Assembly: GCA_020847515.1 (NCBI GenBank)
Contig: JADLBW010000069.1
Location: 1-64,000 of the forward strand
Reading direction: 5' to 3'
Source of the DNA: Pirellulales bacterium
GTDB taxonomy: Bacteria; Planctomycetota; Planctomycetia; Pirellulales; Lacipirellulaceae
Length of the DNA stretch: 64,000 bases
Made by a program: the position numbers and the translations under genes. Position 1 is the stretch's first letter. Each line of letters begins with the position of its first letter. This document shows, piece by piece, positions 2,593 through 8,136 of this stretch. The notes beneath the pieces are model-generated. The model had not been told where the DNA came from. It saw only the letters and a program-made list of their open reading frames with translations, and did not search any database.

Positions 2593-3783
2593 TTAGCGCT
2601 CCAACGGCAAGTCGCTCAGTTCAAACGACGCGAATATGATCTCGCTATAAAGCGGGACCCCGGCTTCGTAGAGTACGCCGGTCCGTCGCGCGTCGATTCT
2701 CGTCAGGTCCGAGTACGCGGCAGGGCCGGGGTGGAGTAGGCCGACTTTGGTCCAGGCGCCGCCTTCCTGGCTGCTGACGAGCACGGTCAAATCGCGACGG
2801 GCGGCCATGGCGCCGGGCGCGGAATACATGAGGATGTTCTGCCGATCGCCTTGGTCTGTAGCGGCCAGTCGCAGAACCGAATTCTGAACGACCGGCGCTA
2901 CGATGTCTTCCTCGGGAGAGAATGGCGCGGAGAACGTCAGCCCACCATCCTCGCTATAGGCAATTAGCCGCGTTCCGGGCGACGAGCCGTTCTGATCCCG
3001 GGCGTTAAAATACACGCGGCCGTCGATCAACTCCACGGCCGTGGTCTCATTGGGATGAATGGGACTGCCGGCCAGATGCGTGTCGACCCCGCCGATTTTC
3101 CAAGTGACGCCATGATCGTCGCTCAGCAGCACGTGCGCTCCCCAACTATCTTCGCCGGCGAGCCGGTGATCGGCGGGGATGATGATTCGCCCGGCGTGCG
3201 TTCCGCGCTGTAGTTGAATGCCGTGGCCTGGACCCGTGGCATACCAGCCCCACCGTGGTTGCTTCGCCGCCGCGGTGATCTCCACACGCGGCAGCCAAGA
3301 GGCCCCGTGGTCGTCGCTGCAGGTGACGAACACCCGATCATTGTTGCGGGTGAAGGGCAACCAGATTCGCCCTGGATGCTCCGGATCCGCCAGGTCTACC
3401 ACGGGCGACGGATTGCCGATAGTGACGTCCGCCGCCGGATCGGACCACTCGTCTTGAACGATCGACATGCCGCTCCAATGGCGACCGCCATCGCTGCTCC
3501 GCTTCATGACGATGTCGATGTCCCCGTCGTCGCCGCTGCCCCGCTTGCGCCCTTCAGCGAAGGCGAGCAGGTCGCCGTTATGGGCTGTGACAATCGCCGG
3601 AATGCGGTACGTGTGGTAGCCGTCGGCGCCGGAACGGAAAACCAGAGTCTTGATGACGTTACTGAGTTGTTGGCCGTGGAGGTCCTTGTCCGCCCCGCTA
3701 AGGGCTCCCCACGCCGCCGCCAGCCAAAGGACCCGTACCGCGGCCGATTGGAACTGCAATACCTTCTTCGATGGCACGGACAT
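2593..3783 (-). CDS. secreted exo-alpha-sialidase (GH33-like, BNR/Asp-box repeats)
   Basis: Glycoside hydrolase predicted to release terminal sialic acid or a related sugar from glycans. An N-terminal hydrophobic stretch (about residues 15-35) looks like a signal peptide. The diagnostic YRIP arginine motif follows at about residue 58. Four Asp-box repeats are visible (SSDGGRHW, SDDHGASW, SDDHGVTW, SEDGGLTF), which make up the six-bladed propeller. The C-terminus has the usual LYE ... I.FA.F pattern carrying the catalytic Tyr/Glu region. At 396 residues it has the usual length for a single-domain bacterial sialidase. It is transcribed alone, convergent with copA and divergent from the ROK kinase. 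The substrate could be another nonulosonic acid; the fold call is strong, the substrate is inferred. Confidence 0.9.
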   Translation of the reverse strand: MSVPSKKVLQFQSAAVRVLWLAAAWGALSGADKDLHGQQLSNVIKTLVFRSGADGYHTYRIPAIVTAHNGDLLAFAEGRKRGSGDDGDIDIVMKRSSDGGRHWSGMSIVQDEWSDPAADVTIGNPSPVVDLADPEHPGRIWLPFTRNNDRVFVTCSDDHGASWLPRVEITAAAKQPRWGWYATGPGHGIQLQRGTHAGRIIIPADHRLAGEDSWGAHVLLSDDHGVTWKIGGVDTHLAGSPIHPNETTAVELIDGRVYFNARDQNGSSPGTRLIAYSEDGGLTFSAPFSPEEDIVAPVVQNSVLRLAATDQGDRQNILMYSAPGAMAARRDLTVLVSSQEGGAWTKVGLLHPGPAAYSDLTRIDARRTGVLYEAGVPLYSEIIFASFELSDLPLER

Positions 3784-4164
3784 CGCCTACTTGTTCTCCA
3801 GCAAGGGCGGCCTGCAGCGCGCCAAACCAAGGAGAGCCTTTCATTCGATCAGCGGATCTAAGGAACGAACATACCCGAAGCGCCGCCATTGGCGCATGTA
3901 TGGCCCGAGCTGCGCTGGCGCAGAATTTATTGAAAACGGCGCGGCTAAGGAACCGTGCCCCACTGTCGGCGGGCGGCGGTCGCCCGACGGCAAGAGAGGA
4001 AAATGCTCATCCTTCCACCCACTAACCGATGGCCGAGAGTCGACGGCCCAAAAGCGGTAACGGGTTCATAGCGGCGCGGCAATCAATCGAACAGTTTTGG
4101 CACGACGCTTGCTAGGCATGCCTCGCGGTGATGTGAGCAGCAAAACTCCACTCGCGGCTGTGCG
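3784..4164. other. divergent intergenic region, sialidase / ROK kinase
   Basis: This 381-bp spacer between two divergent genes holds no convincing gene; the ORF-track entries here are overlapping short frames in low-information sequence. Its one clear element is the sigma-54 type promoter at 4098-4113. Upstream of it, near 3975-4000, is a GC-rich imperfect inverted repeat (GGGCG gcggt CGCCC core) that could be an activator site, but this is weak. I found no convincing promoter for the sialidase. Confidence 0.6.
4098..4113 (+). promoter_or_regulatory. sigma-54 (RpoN) -24/-12 promoter
   Basis: The sequence reads TTGGCACG-N4-TTGCT, with GG at 4099-4100 and GC at 4111-4112, exactly 12 bases apart. 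It matches every position of the consensus YTGGCACG-N4-TTGCW. The predicted start is near 4123, giving a leader of about 42 nt before the ROK kinase ATG. Location in a promoter region and correct orientation support function. No enhancer-binding protein gene is in the window. Confidence 0.8.
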
Positions 4165-4875
4165 ATGAACATCCTCGTGATCGACGTGGGCGGCACCAAC
4201 GTCAAGGTGTGGAAGACCGAAGAGGCCGAAAAAGTCAAATTTCCCTCCGGCAGGGACCTCACGCCCCAAACGCTTCTCGAAGGCGTCCGCGAGGCGACCG
4301 AAGGCTGGCCCGTGGAACGGGTGTCGATCGGCTATCCGGGCGACGTCCGAAACGGCAGACCCATCGCTGAACCCTATAACTTGGGCGACGGGTGGGTAGA
4401 CTTCGACTTCGTCCATGCCTTCGACTGTCCGGTTCGAATCATGAACGACGCCTGCCTGCAGGCCTTGGGAAGCTACGACGGGGGGCGGATGCTATACCTA
4501 GGACTGGGAACCAGCATCGGAACTGCGTTTATCACCGACGGCGTGATCGTCCCCCTAGCGCTCGGACACCCGAAACTGTGGGAAGGCGAAACCTTCGAGC
4601 ACTATTTGGGTCGCGCCGCGTTGACGCTACACGGCAAAAAACGGTGGCGGCAAGCCGTCGCTGAAACTGCCGCCATTCTCAAGCCGGCTTTTCTAGCGGA
4701 TTACATCGTGCTTGGCGGCGGCAATGCGGACGAGCTCAAGGAAATGCCCCCAGGATGTCGGCGGGGCGGCAATCACAATGCTTACTTCGGCGGGCTGCGG
4801 ATGTGGGAGGATATTGCCGACTCCGCACCGTCGCACCTGGCCGTTCTTCCCAAAGTCGCTGCTGAAACGGCATAA
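4165..4875 (+). CDS. ROK-family sugar kinase, polyphosphate-glucokinase-like
   Basis: Cytoplasmic kinase expected to phosphorylate glucose or a related hexose with ATP or polyphosphate. Residues 4-12 form the ASKHA phosphate-binding loop (VIDVGGTNVK). YPGDV and NDACLQALG give the sugar site and the ND catalytic Asp region. LGLGTSIGTAF is the second phosphate loop and IVLGGGNA the adenosine loop. The 236-residue length fits the short polyphosphate-glucokinase group better than ordinary ROK repressor/kinases of about 300. It has no helix-turn-helix. No Shine-Dalgarno precedes the ATG. It stands alone, 75 bp before the DUF2231-Rieske gene, and appears to be driven by the sigma-54 promoter just upstream, which would make its expression conditional. 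Phosphoryl donor and sugar are not decided by sequence. Confidence 0.8.
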   Translation: MNILVIDVGGTNVKVWKTEEAEKVKFPSGRDLTPQTLLEGVREATEGWPVERVSIGYPGDVRNGRPIAEPYNLGDGWVDFDFVHAFDCPVRIMNDACLQALGSYDGGRMLYLGLGTSIGTAFITDGVIVPLALGHPKLWEGETFEHYLGRAALTLHGKKRWRQAVAETAAILKPAFLADYIVLGGGNADELKEMPPGCRRGGNHNAYFGGLRMWEDIADSAPSHLAVLPKVAAETA

Positions 4876-4950
4876 GCGCCGCTACTGCCGCTTGCGTAGC
4901 GTGGTTATACAAGGCCCCCGCATCGCCGCACTACGCACGAGGATTCTGTC

Positions 4951-5754
4951 ATGCGAAGCAAGGCGCGGATAAAGAACCATCCGCTCCATCCAATGCTCAT
5001 TGCCTTTCCGATTGCATTCGTCACGACTGCCCCGATAGCGGACCTTGTGGGAATATGGGGCGGATGGCGCGAGGCGTGGCTAATCGGGGCATATTCCAGT
5101 CTAGCTGCGGTGGTTACGGGTCTGTTCGCCGCCGCGCCAGGATTGGTTGATTACTTCCTCGTCGTGCCCCCGCAAAGCTCGGGTAAACGCCGGGCCACCT
5201 GGCATATGGCGATCAATGCAACAGCCCTAGTCGCTTTTGCGGCCGGGTGGGCGTTTCGCGACTGGCATACGTTACAGCCGCAGGCCCTAGCGGTAGCGCT
5301 GGAAATTGCCGGCTGGGCGCTGATCAGCGTCGGCGGTTGGCTCGGCGGCACGTTGGTGTACCGCAATCAAATCGGAATCGACCATCGCTACGCTGAAGCG
5401 GGAAAATGGCGAGAAGTCTCCATCCAAGCGGCGCCGGGCGAGCCTGTGGCCGTGCCGGGGGCCGACCAGCTAAAACCTGGGCAGATGATGCTCATTCACG
5501 TCGGCGGCCGACGAATCGTCCTGGCCAGAACCGAATCAGCTTTTCGCGCCTTCGACGACCGCTGCACCCATCGCGGAGGCTCACTGGCCGCCGGAGTTCT
5601 GGCGTGCGACGTCGTCGCCTGCCCCTGGCACGGCTCTCAATTCAGTGTCGTTGACGGCAAAGTCCAGGCCGGACCAGCGACAGAACCGTTATCTACCTAC
5701 CCAGTCCTAGAGTCTCACGGCGAGATCAGGATCGAACTGGCCAGTTCCAGTTAA
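4951..5754 (+). CDS. DUF2231 membrane protein fused to a Rieske [2Fe-2S] domain
   Basis: Two-part protein. Residues 1-150 are a DUF2231 membrane domain that begins with the family's NHPLHP motif and shows four hydrophobic helices. Residues 175-260 are a Rieske ferredoxin fold with both cluster-ligand pairs: C205-T-H207 and C224-P-W-H227. This arrangement suggests a membrane-bound electron-transfer protein, possibly handing electrons to or from a haem or quinone partner. The partner is unknown and no cytochrome lies next to it. Similar fusions of DUF2231 with Rieske modules are known in bacteria without an assigned pathway. The 267-residue ORF is complete. Confidence 0.85.
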   Translation: MRSKARIKNHPLHPMLIAFPIAFVTTAPIADLVGIWGGWREAWLIGAYSSLAAVVTGLFAAAPGLVDYFLVVPPQSSGKRRATWHMAINATALVAFAAGWAFRDWHTLQPQALAVALEIAGWALISVGGWLGGTLVYRNQIGIDHRYAEAGKWREVSIQAAPGEPVAVPGADQLKPGQMMLIHVGGRRIVLARTESAFRAFDDRCTHRGGSLAAGVLACDVVACPWHGSQFSVVDGKVQAGPATEPLSTYPVLESHGEIRIELASSS

Positions 5755-5858
5755 TGAACTCGGTTCCGCCCCGCGGCCCGCCTTCGGGGCGTTTGGCGCG
5801 CGCCTTGCCCCTACGAAGCCCTGTTATTCCACACTTTCGACGACAGGAGGAACTACCT

Positions 5859-6293
5859 ATGGCGACCAGCAGCAAAGCAAGCCGCAGCCGGACAAAAGGG
5901 CAATCCGTGAAGGCGGCCGGCGGCAAGTCGGGTCGCACTTCAGCGAAGACCAATGGCGCGGCGAAGCGCGGCGGCGAAGGGAAGGCGCCCAGCACTCGAT
6001 CGGCCAGCAGCAAGCGGACGACCAGCCACGCGGTCATTCGCAAGTGGGTCGAAGCTCGCGGCGGTAAACCGTCGATCGTAGGCGCCACGAAGGGACGGGG
6101 AAAATCCGCCGGCTTATTGCGGATCGATTTCCCTGGATATCGCGGGGAAGGAAGTCTGCAGGAACTCTCGTGGGACCAATTCTTTGAGACCTTTGATGCA
6201 AATGATCTGGTCTTTCTCTACCAGGAGAAAACGGCGACGGGACGCCCGAGCCGCTTCTCGAAATTCGTAAGTAAGTCGTCCGCTCGGAAGTGA
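5859..6293 (+). CDS. small protein with Lys/Ala/Ser-rich tail and conserved C-terminal domain
   Basis: The ATG at 5859 is chosen over the longer ORF because GACAGGAGG lies 7 nt upstream, giving 144 residues. Residues 1-55 are rich in Lys, Arg, Ala, Ser and Gly and should be disordered and highly basic, like the tails of bacterial histone-H1-type proteins. Residues 56-144 are a compact conserved-looking domain with HAVIRKWVEARGGKP, RIDFPGY, LSWDQFFE and FLYQEKT. Short proteins with this C-terminal domain are widespread and usually unannotated; I recognise the pattern but not a function. The basic tail makes nucleic acid binding a reasonable guess only. Confidence 0.75.
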   Translation: MATSSKASRSRTKGQSVKAAGGKSGRTSAKTNGAAKRGGEGKAPSTRSASSKRTTSHAVIRKWVEARGGKPSIVGATKGRGKSAGLLRIDFPGYRGEGSLQELSWDQFFETFDANDLVFLYQEKTATGRPSRFSKFVSKSSARK

Positions 6294-6406
6294 CCGGCGT
6301 CCGTTGGGCTACCGCGGAAGTCGCCCGAAGCGAGGGGTCGTCGGAGTTGCGAAGCGCACAATGGCGCTATTTGAGCAGCGCCCCATTTGGCTCGGAGGAT
6401 CTGCCA

Positions 6407-6790
6407 GTGCCCTCGTTGCAGCAGACAATTGATAAGCATTTGCGGGCGATCTGCGAGCGAGATCTTGCCGCCCTGCAGGAGACTGTGGCGATGGGCGACA
6501 TCGTCCTGATCACAGCCGAGGGGAGACTTGTCCGCGACCCGGCCGTCTTTTTCGAGATGCATCGTCAGTGGTTTGCCTCAGACGCATGGCAACTAGGGAC
6601 GGAGCCTGTTTGCCAGTGGGAGTCTCAGAGCCTGGGCGTGGTGGTTCTCAAACTCGACTACTGCGAGTCGCCGCCCGGCAAGCCGCAACTGCACGCCGAG
6701 AGTTTTCTGACGCTGGTGTTCCAGCGGCAAGCAGATCGCTGGCTTTTGGTGCAGGACCAGAACACGCCGTGTAAGGGTACAAGTTCCTAG
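6407..6790 (+). CDS. NTF2-like / SnoaL-type small protein
   Basis: The GTG at 6407 is preferred to the ORF-track start because GGAGGA ends 7 nt before it and because the extra upstream residues overlap the previous gene and look unconserved. The 127-residue product has the alternating helix-strand pattern of the NTF2-like cone fold (IDKHLRAICERDLAAL, ITAEGRLVRDP, WLLVQDQNTP). Proteins of this type act as small enzymes, ligand binders or stress proteins. The family matches the ketosteroid-isomerase/SnoaL/DUF4440 group, where substrate cannot be told from sequence. No signal peptide is present. Confidence 0.7.
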   Translation: MPSLQQTIDKHLRAICERDLAALQETVAMGDIVLITAEGRLVRDPAVFFEMHRQWFASDAWQLGTEPVCQWESQSLGVVVLKLDYCESPPGKPQLHAESFLTLVFQRQADRWLLVQDQNTPCKGTSS

Positions 6791-6832
6791 CGGCGGCGCT
6801 CAGTCGTTATTACCCCTTGATGGAAGGCTTCC

Positions 6833-6841
6833 TGTAATAAT
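6833..6841 (+). promoter_or_regulatory. possible extended -10 promoter of SDR gene
   Basis: TG-T-AATAAT gives an extended -10 with five of six matches to TATAAT. It lies 18 nt before the SDR start, in the first AT-rich patch of the spacer. A -35-like TTGATG at 6817-6822 is too close to pair with it but would pair with TATTTA at 6841-6846 over 18 bp. The exact hexamers are therefore uncertain. Confidence 0.35.
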
Positions 6842-6858
6842 ATTTAGTCGGAGCCATG

Positions 6859-7578
6859 ATGAGCATGTTGGACGGCAAGGTGTGCTTGGTCACCGGTGCA
6901 GGGCAAGGCTTAGGGCAGGCGACCTGCAAAGTCCTGTCCGAAGCCGGCGCAACGGTCGTCGCCGCAGATATCCGAGGCGAGGCGGCCCAGCGAACCGCGC
7001 AGTTGTTGGAACGGCCAGGGGGGCGCGCGGTGACGCTCGATGTTTCGCAAGACCGCCAGGCGGCACAAGTCATTGATGAGATCGTCGCCGACCTAGGCGG
7101 CATCGACGTACTGGTGAACAACGCCGGCGTTGACAAGACGGTTCCCGTGGAAGAGCTATCGTTTGAGGACTGGGACCGCATCATGGCCGTCAATTTGCGC
7201 GGACCGTTCGTTATGTCGAAGCTGGCGCTGCGGCAGATGAAATCGCAAGGCGGCGGGCATATCGTCAACATCGTATCCACTGCCGCTAAGCGAGCATGGG
7301 CTAACGCGGCCGCCTACCACGCCAGCAAATGGGGACTGCTGGGCCTAAGTCATGCCTTGCACGTTGAGGGTCGTCCGCACAAGGTGAAAGTGACCGCGGT
7401 AATCGCCGGCGGCATGCGTACGCCCTTTCTCTTAGACAGGTTTCCTGATTTGGATCCGAATGTACTGCAGGATCCGAAGAACGTCGCTGATACCGTGCGC
7501 TTTGTGCTTACCCAACCAGCCGAGACGGTCGTCCCCGAAGTGATGGTTCTGCCGATGCGCGAAAGCTCATGGCCCTAG
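6859..7578 (+). CDS. short-chain dehydrogenase/reductase (classical SDR)
   Basis: NAD(P)-dependent oxidoreductase with a Rossmann fold. The cofactor loop is TGAGQGLG near the N-terminus, the structural motif is NNAG, and the catalytic triad is Ser (NIVSTAA), Tyr and Lys (YHASK). D in VVAADI after beta-2 favours NAD over NADP. The 239-residue length is normal. ATG at 6859 is preferred over 6856 because GGAG is then 5 nt upstream. It is followed after 18 bp by the macrodomain gene on the same strand, so the two may be cotranscribed. The substrate cannot be named; the family includes 3-oxoacyl-ACP reductases and sugar or steroid dehydrogenases. Confidence 0.88.
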   Translation: MSMLDGKVCLVTGAGQGLGQATCKVLSEAGATVVAADIRGEAAQRTAQLLERPGGRAVTLDVSQDRQAAQVIDEIVADLGGIDVLVNNAGVDKTVPVEELSFEDWDRIMAVNLRGPFVMSKLALRQMKSQGGGHIVNIVSTAAKRAWANAAAYHASKWGLLGLSHALHVEGRPHKVKVTAVIAGGMRTPFLLDRFPDLDPNVLQDPKNVADTVRFVLTQPAETVVPEVMVLPMRESSWP

Positions 7579-7596
7579 CGAAGGCGCAAACGAGCG

Positions 7597-8136
7597 ATGG
7601 ATGAGGCGATCGCTTCACGACTGCGGACCGTCCAGGGCGATATCACGCAGTTGGCGGTCGATGCGATCGTTAGTGCGGCCAACAGCGCCCTGCTGGGAGG
7701 CGGCGGAGTGGACGGCGCGATCCACCGGGCGGCTGGACCGGGGTTGCTGGAGGAATGCCGCCGCGTGGGAGGATGTCCCGCCGGCGAGGCCCGCCTCACG
7801 GGCGGTTATTGCTTGCCGGCGCGGTACGTAATTCACGCGGTCGGGCCGGTGTGGCACGGCGGCCGGTGCGGCGAGGCGGCGCTGCTGAAGTCGTGTTACA
7901 GAAGCGCATTGACGCTGGCGCGAGACGTAGCGGCCCGGACCATTGCTTTTCCTTGCATCTCTACCGGCGCCTACCGCTATCCGAAGCAGCGGGCGTGTGA
8001 GACGGCTGTGGCGTCGGTTGTCCGGTGGCTTGCAGAGAATCGACTTCCGGAGACGGTTACCTTTTGCTTGTTTGACTACGAGAATGCGGAGCTTTACCGC
8101 AATCGCCTCGCGCAGGAGCAACCGCCGAACGGATAG
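7597..8136 (+). CDS. macrodomain protein, O-acetyl-ADP-ribose deacetylase type (YmdB-like)
   Basis: Single macrodomain of 179 residues. It binds ADP-ribose and is expected to hydrolyse O-acetyl-ADP-ribose or remove ADP-ribose from proteins. The MacroD/YmdB hallmark is complete: VDAIVSAANSALLGGGGVDGAIHRAAGP, read as the Asn-containing loop and the GGGGVDGAIH diphosphate loop, followed by ISTGAYRYP, the second phosphate loop. It lies 18 bp downstream of the SDR gene on the same strand. No sirtuin or ADP-ribosyltransferase gene is present in the window. Confidence 0.92.
   Translation: MDEAIASRLRTVQGDITQLAVDAIVSAANSALLGGGGVDGAIHRAAGPGLLEECRRVGGCPAGEARLTGGYCLPARYVIHAVGPVWHGGRCGEAALLKSCYRSALTLARDVAARTIAFPCISTGAYRYPKQRACETAVASVVRWLAENRLPETVTFCLFDYENAELYRNRLAQEQPPNG

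Follow-up and report, generated by a model that had tools for sequence, protein, structure and literature searches.

A predicted sigma-54 promoter upstream of a ROK-family kinase gene in a Pirellulales bacterium recurs at orthologues of the gene

Results

The kinase gene, its neighbours and an exact sigma-54 consensus site

The window, by which we mean the whole 64-kb stretch of DNA analysed here, encodes a ROK-family kinase-like protein of 236 amino acids at positions 4165 to 4875 on the plus strand. A spacer of 381 nt separates its ATG at position 4165 from a divergent sialidase-like gene with BNR repeats (2593 to 3783, minus strand; Pfam BNR_2), which bounds the spacer and probably lies outside the transcription unit. 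On the other side, after a gap of 75 nt, lies a plus-strand gene (4951 to 5754) whose 267-residue product joins a DUF2231 membrane domain to a C-terminal Rieske [2Fe-2S] domain. It is followed on the same strand by an open reading frame of 179 amino acids with no Pfam match (5754 to 6293), which is putatively coding and a possible operon member, and by genes that Pfam assigns to a SnoaL-like protein (6290 to 6790) and an SDR oxidoreductase (6856 to 7578). Judging from strand and spacing, the genes from 4951 to 7578 are possibly carried on the kinase transcript, the fusion gene as its second member. In a genome of the same genus (G001), the SnoaL-like homologue directly follows the ROK gene and has a sigma-54-like site of its own with a score of 15.7, and a homologue of the SDR gene likewise lies downstream of the ROK gene.

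Within the spacer, we observed an exact sigma-54 core, TGGCACGACGCTTGCT, at positions 4098 to 4113 on the plus strand, matching the consensus at every scored position. A T at position 4097 lengthens the match, such that TTGGCACG-ACGC-TTGCT spans 4097 to 4113, with the -24 GG and -12 GC elements in the correct spacing, strand and consensus context. Relative to consensus sigma-54 promoters of the form TGGCACG-N4-TTGCW, the site shares all scored positions, the GG-to-GC spacing, and the position and strand with respect to the gene; it differs from them in no feature of its sequence, from which its promoter role here is predicted. Sigma-54 transcripts usually begin about 12 nt beyond the -12 GC, which predicts a start at 4123 to 4125. 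The ROK ATG lies 51 nt past the end of the site, and a start near 4124 would give a leader of about 41 nt. These values bear out an earlier note on this DNA, which had claimed a near-perfect match at 4098 to 4113 in a 381-nt spacer and a leader of about 42 nt.

The site is the sole zero-mismatch match within the window. Sites with up to two mismatches number 9, against a mean of 11.2 in shuffled sequence, which is chance level, so only the exactness of the match at 4098 to 4113 is notable. A scan of positions 3700 to 7700 for sigma-70-like patterns, a scan poorly suited to Planctomycetota, found none. Taken alone, the site is moderate evidence for a promoter.

Matches in the genome and in the family

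This organism's genome, a draft of 4.18 Mb that is 68.6% complete, was searched by pattern and by family. The exact core occurs twice in it, as does a mirrored control. On genome counts alone chance is thus a fair rival, and we rejected such counts as sole proof because real and mirrored matches are equally frequent here. With the added 5' T, the genome holds 2 real matches and 0 mirrored ones, and a search of the family's 44 genomes with this 17-mer yielded 84 real matches and 20 mirrored ones. The second exact copy of the core in the genome precedes a frame identified by eye as an AmtB ammonium transporter, and the same contig carries a P-II gene on that strand; amtB is a classical sigma-54 nitrogen target.

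Recurrence of the site at orthologues

Orthologues of the kinase were drawn from the order and the class, the named relatives being Planctomycetota metagenome-assembled genomes. Upstream regions were scored with a manually built matrix reflecting general knowledge of the sigma-54 consensus, and a strong site was defined as one with a log-odds score of at least 14 no more than 250 nt upstream of the gene. We settled on 14 as the cut-off once the scores had been inspected a first time, and applied the identical matrix and cut-off to all controls. We observed strong sites at 9 of the 19 members of the subfamily to which the window's kinase belongs, against a mean of 0.05 and a maximum of 1 for 300 column-permuted matrices. 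A comparison free of the cut-off gave a mean best score of 12.1 in the subfamily and 1.3 for the permuted matrices (sd 0.9, maximum 4.0), and a score of 14 or more occurs in 1.7% of random 250-nt windows from the fetched loci. Examples are TTGGCGCGTTAGTTGCT (G001), CTGGCATGCCATTTGCT (G098) and TTGGCATGCCCTTTGCC (G029), together with TTGGCATTGGGATTGCA (G501) from the same class but outside the order. In seven of the 19 members, the best site inside 250 nt scores below 11. The strong-site rate of the subfamily exceeds that of the P-II genes used as a positive control (6/30).

Among 20 comparison ROK proteins, a single one (L011) is preceded by a site. The sister clade is supported (99/98) and excludes this protein, which forms a long branch, so sites occur at 0 of 18 sister-clade genes. 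The upstream DNA of the window did not align as a block with that of its same-genus orthologue, and when eight site-bearing upstream regions were compared pairwise no pair passed a simple similarity screen. The motif has therefore persisted, or been regained, amid changing surroundings. Such recurrence at orthologous genes counts as strong sequence-level evidence that the site is a promoter.

RpoN and its activators

A profile search identified one RpoN in the genome (G000:C271; Sigma54_DBD, 213.7 bits). The same genome gave ten strong or partial matches to PF00158, and seven readable activator proteins carry a GAFTGA loop or the variant GSFTGA. Their sensor domains, read by eye, are receiver, GAF, FHA-GAF or none, and NtrC-type activators are among those encoded. 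The genome thus likely encodes at least seven activators. The earlier note had proposed looking for RpoN and its activators and had named the lack of an rpoN gene as fatal to its claim; both rpoN and GAFTGA activators are present.

In three further genomes of the genus (G002, G003 and G004), an exact sigma-54 site, TTGGCACGCCGATTGCA, lies 85 to 88 nt before rpoN itself (L160, L163 and L168), and the present genome has a weaker counterpart at L001, ATGGCGCCGATTTTGCT, with a score of 12.3. These sites suggest sigma-54 autoregulation in this genus.

Candidate activator-binding motifs

We found no activator-binding dyad shared by the ROK promoters and none common to the nitrogen sites. Screening did reveal, post hoc, the palindrome TGCCA-N3-TGGCA, exact at 7 of 24 stress-type sites where shuffled sequence gives an expectation of 0.04. 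It lies 70 to 98 nt upstream of exact sigma-54 sites at GroEL and Hsp20 genes (L054, L073, L081, L104, L134, L138 and L158) and is absent at the flagellar, nitrogen, rpoN and ROK sites. The palindrome is a candidate binding site for a heat-shock sigma-54 activator. Because it is missing at the ROK sites, more than one activator probably acts on the stress set considered below.

Genes that accompany sigma-54 sites in the order

Across the order, exact TTGGCACG-N4-TTGCW sites precede the expected targets, namely flagellar rod, nif, P-II and amtB-like genes. They also precede genes for GroEL, Hsp20, CsbD, DUF892, BON, hemerythrin-like, csrA and HAD products. The gene names were mostly read by eye from translations, several being confirmed with Pfam, and some of the listed exact matches, located within long open frames, are unlikely to be promoters. 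Neighbours of the ROK orthologues that have sites of their own include genes for DUF4142, DJ-1/PfpI, ferritin-like, topoisomerase IB and SnoaL-like proteins, and in G098 near-perfect sites stand both at the ROK gene and, on a different contig, at a HAD phosphatase gene.

When gene families were tested as such, strong sites were found at 9/29 DUF892, 5/30 DUF4142 and 4/30 HAD genes, compared with the 6/30 of the P-II positive control and 0/30 for ribosomal L14, the negative control. The DUF892 gene of the present genome (L211) has an upstream site scoring 14.6. Sigma-54 control of the HAD gene in every genome was considered and rejected, the HAD sites being patchy. Given the annotation of these gene families, we favour, with some reserve, the existence in this order of a sigma-54 stress gene set to which the ROK kinase belongs.

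Two further observations concern gene order. A protein of about 570 to 625 amino acids, in which a HAD phosphatase domain precedes an ATPase-like second half with a P-loop (this half read by eye), is encoded next to the ROK gene in several families (L094, L092, L090 and L091), and in other families the HAD domain occurs alone (L253, L254 and L255). At L098 (G069), sigma-54-like sites precede ROK, DUF4142 and DJ-1/PfpI genes, with what looks like an ATP-dependent DNA ligase (LigD-like) close by, and the cluster resembles the general-stress islands of other phyla.

The kinase

The 236-residue protein matches PF00480 with 29.7 bits, above the curated cut-off of 22.9, and thus belongs to the ROK family. 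Its nearest solved structure is 3LM2 (E 2.4e-58), an uncharacterised "putative kinase" similar to it over the full length and of similar size. The polyphosphate/ATP glucomannokinase 1WOQ is only remotely similar (E 3.8e-7), and the best NCBIfam model, PPGK (NF045942), scores 41.2 bits, well below its equivalog cut-off of 250. The protein shares ROK family membership and the DxGGT and LGT motifs with these polyphosphate-linked enzymes; with the DxGGT, ND pair and LGT motifs all intact, catalysis is plausible.

It differs from them, in addition to its remoteness, at the E-x-G-H motif, whose Glu is a sugar-contacting residue in characterised ROK glucokinases. Here the motif reads ALGH, with Ala in place of Glu, and the aligned motif of 3LM2 is EIAH. 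The first position is Ala or Ser in 19/19 subfamily members, compared with mostly Glu in the sister clade. Since the sugar-contacting Glu has been replaced, the substrate of the subfamily may differ from that of characterised ROK glucokinases. In the sister clade (L023, L021, L186 and the rest), sigma-54 sites are absent and the Glu is mostly kept. The sigma-54 linkage and the loss of this Glu, likely an active-site change, thus go together.

Discussion

We conclude that positions 4097 to 4113 very probably constitute a functional sigma-54 promoter of the ROK gene. Sigma-54 promoters depend on an activator for expression, and by this established biology the kinase would be expressed only conditionally, as the earlier note had proposed. 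The presence of RpoN and of GAFTGA activators, the lack of a nearby sigma-70-like pattern and the recurrence at orthologues all support that proposal. RNA polymerase carrying RpoN would be held closed at 4097 to 4113 until an ATP-hydrolysing activator opens the promoter, so the ROK gene would be off or low before a signal arrives. The same promoter may also drive the co-directional genes that follow. The kinase would act in a stress set with DUF892, DUF4142, CsbD, hemerythrin-like, small heat-shock and GroEL proteins and an often-neighbouring HAD phosphatase. The sigma-54 signal seems to place the kinase among stress-induced genes and not in basic sugar metabolism.

The strongest competing explanation accepts the promoter and has it respond, through an NtrC-like activator, to nitrogen or carbon starvation only, with no stress set. 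The exact site at the amtB-like gene and the NtrC-type activators of this genome fit such a response, but stress-type genes account for most of the neighbours and co-occurring sigma-54 sites, and no common dyad emerged at ROK or nitrogen sites; we consider this explanation unlikely. The starvation link drawn in the earlier note survives as one possibility inside a broader stress-gene context. That the site is a chance match, with transcription of the gene coming from a housekeeping or ECF promoter that went unrecognised, agrees with the equal counts of exact and mirrored-control matches in this genome and gains from the poor fit of the sigma-70 scan to the phylum, but is improbable given sites at 9/19 subfamily genes against 0/18 in the sister clade and at most 1 with permuted matrices. 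Least probable of all is a polyphosphate glucokinase under sigma-54 that ties starvation to polyphosphate, since PPGK, although the best NCBIfam model and accompanied by the remote 1WOQ similarity, falls at 41 bits against 250, 3LM2 is far closer, and Ala or Ser replaces the E-x-G-H Glu throughout the subfamily. The descriptions "polyphosphate-glucokinase-like" and "basic sugar kinase" in the earlier note are consequently not supported, and its polyphosphate link finds no support in this analysis; a small set of papers searched for RpoN together with glucokinase and polyphosphate yielded nothing relevant.

Sigma-54 is usually discussed in connection with nitrogen, flagella and specialised metabolism. 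The stress-type sites described here also have a precedent within the phylum. A 2025 comparative study (PMC12316311) predicted that in Planctomycetia sigma-54 controls chaperones, csrA and universal stress proteins, and its regulon shares with ours chaperones, a small heat-shock protein, csrA and signalling genes with predicted sigma-54 promoters. The main text of that study, whose references include Studholme and Dixon 2004 on Pirellula, makes no mention of ROK, COG1940, CsbD, DUF892 or hemerythrin. The ROK promoter would thus be new within a regulon that had been partly predicted before, though it may be listed in the supplements or in the 2004 Pirellula study.

Returning to the reading of the site as a promoter of a stress-set kinase, it provides a functional clue, the first in this analysis, to an uncharacterised ROK subfamily. 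We offer more tentatively the idea that sigma-54 is a general stress regulator across the order, and that the Ala-variant ROK protein is a dedicated stress kinase with a non-glucose substrate, often paired with a HAD phosphatase. General stress regulators elsewhere are RpoS, SigB and EcfG; if this idea were true, sigma-54 would fill the role of one of these in this order. The statistically well-supported promoter specific to the ROK subfamily and the sites at several stress-protein families together make a testable case for broader sigma-54 stress control in Planctomycetota.
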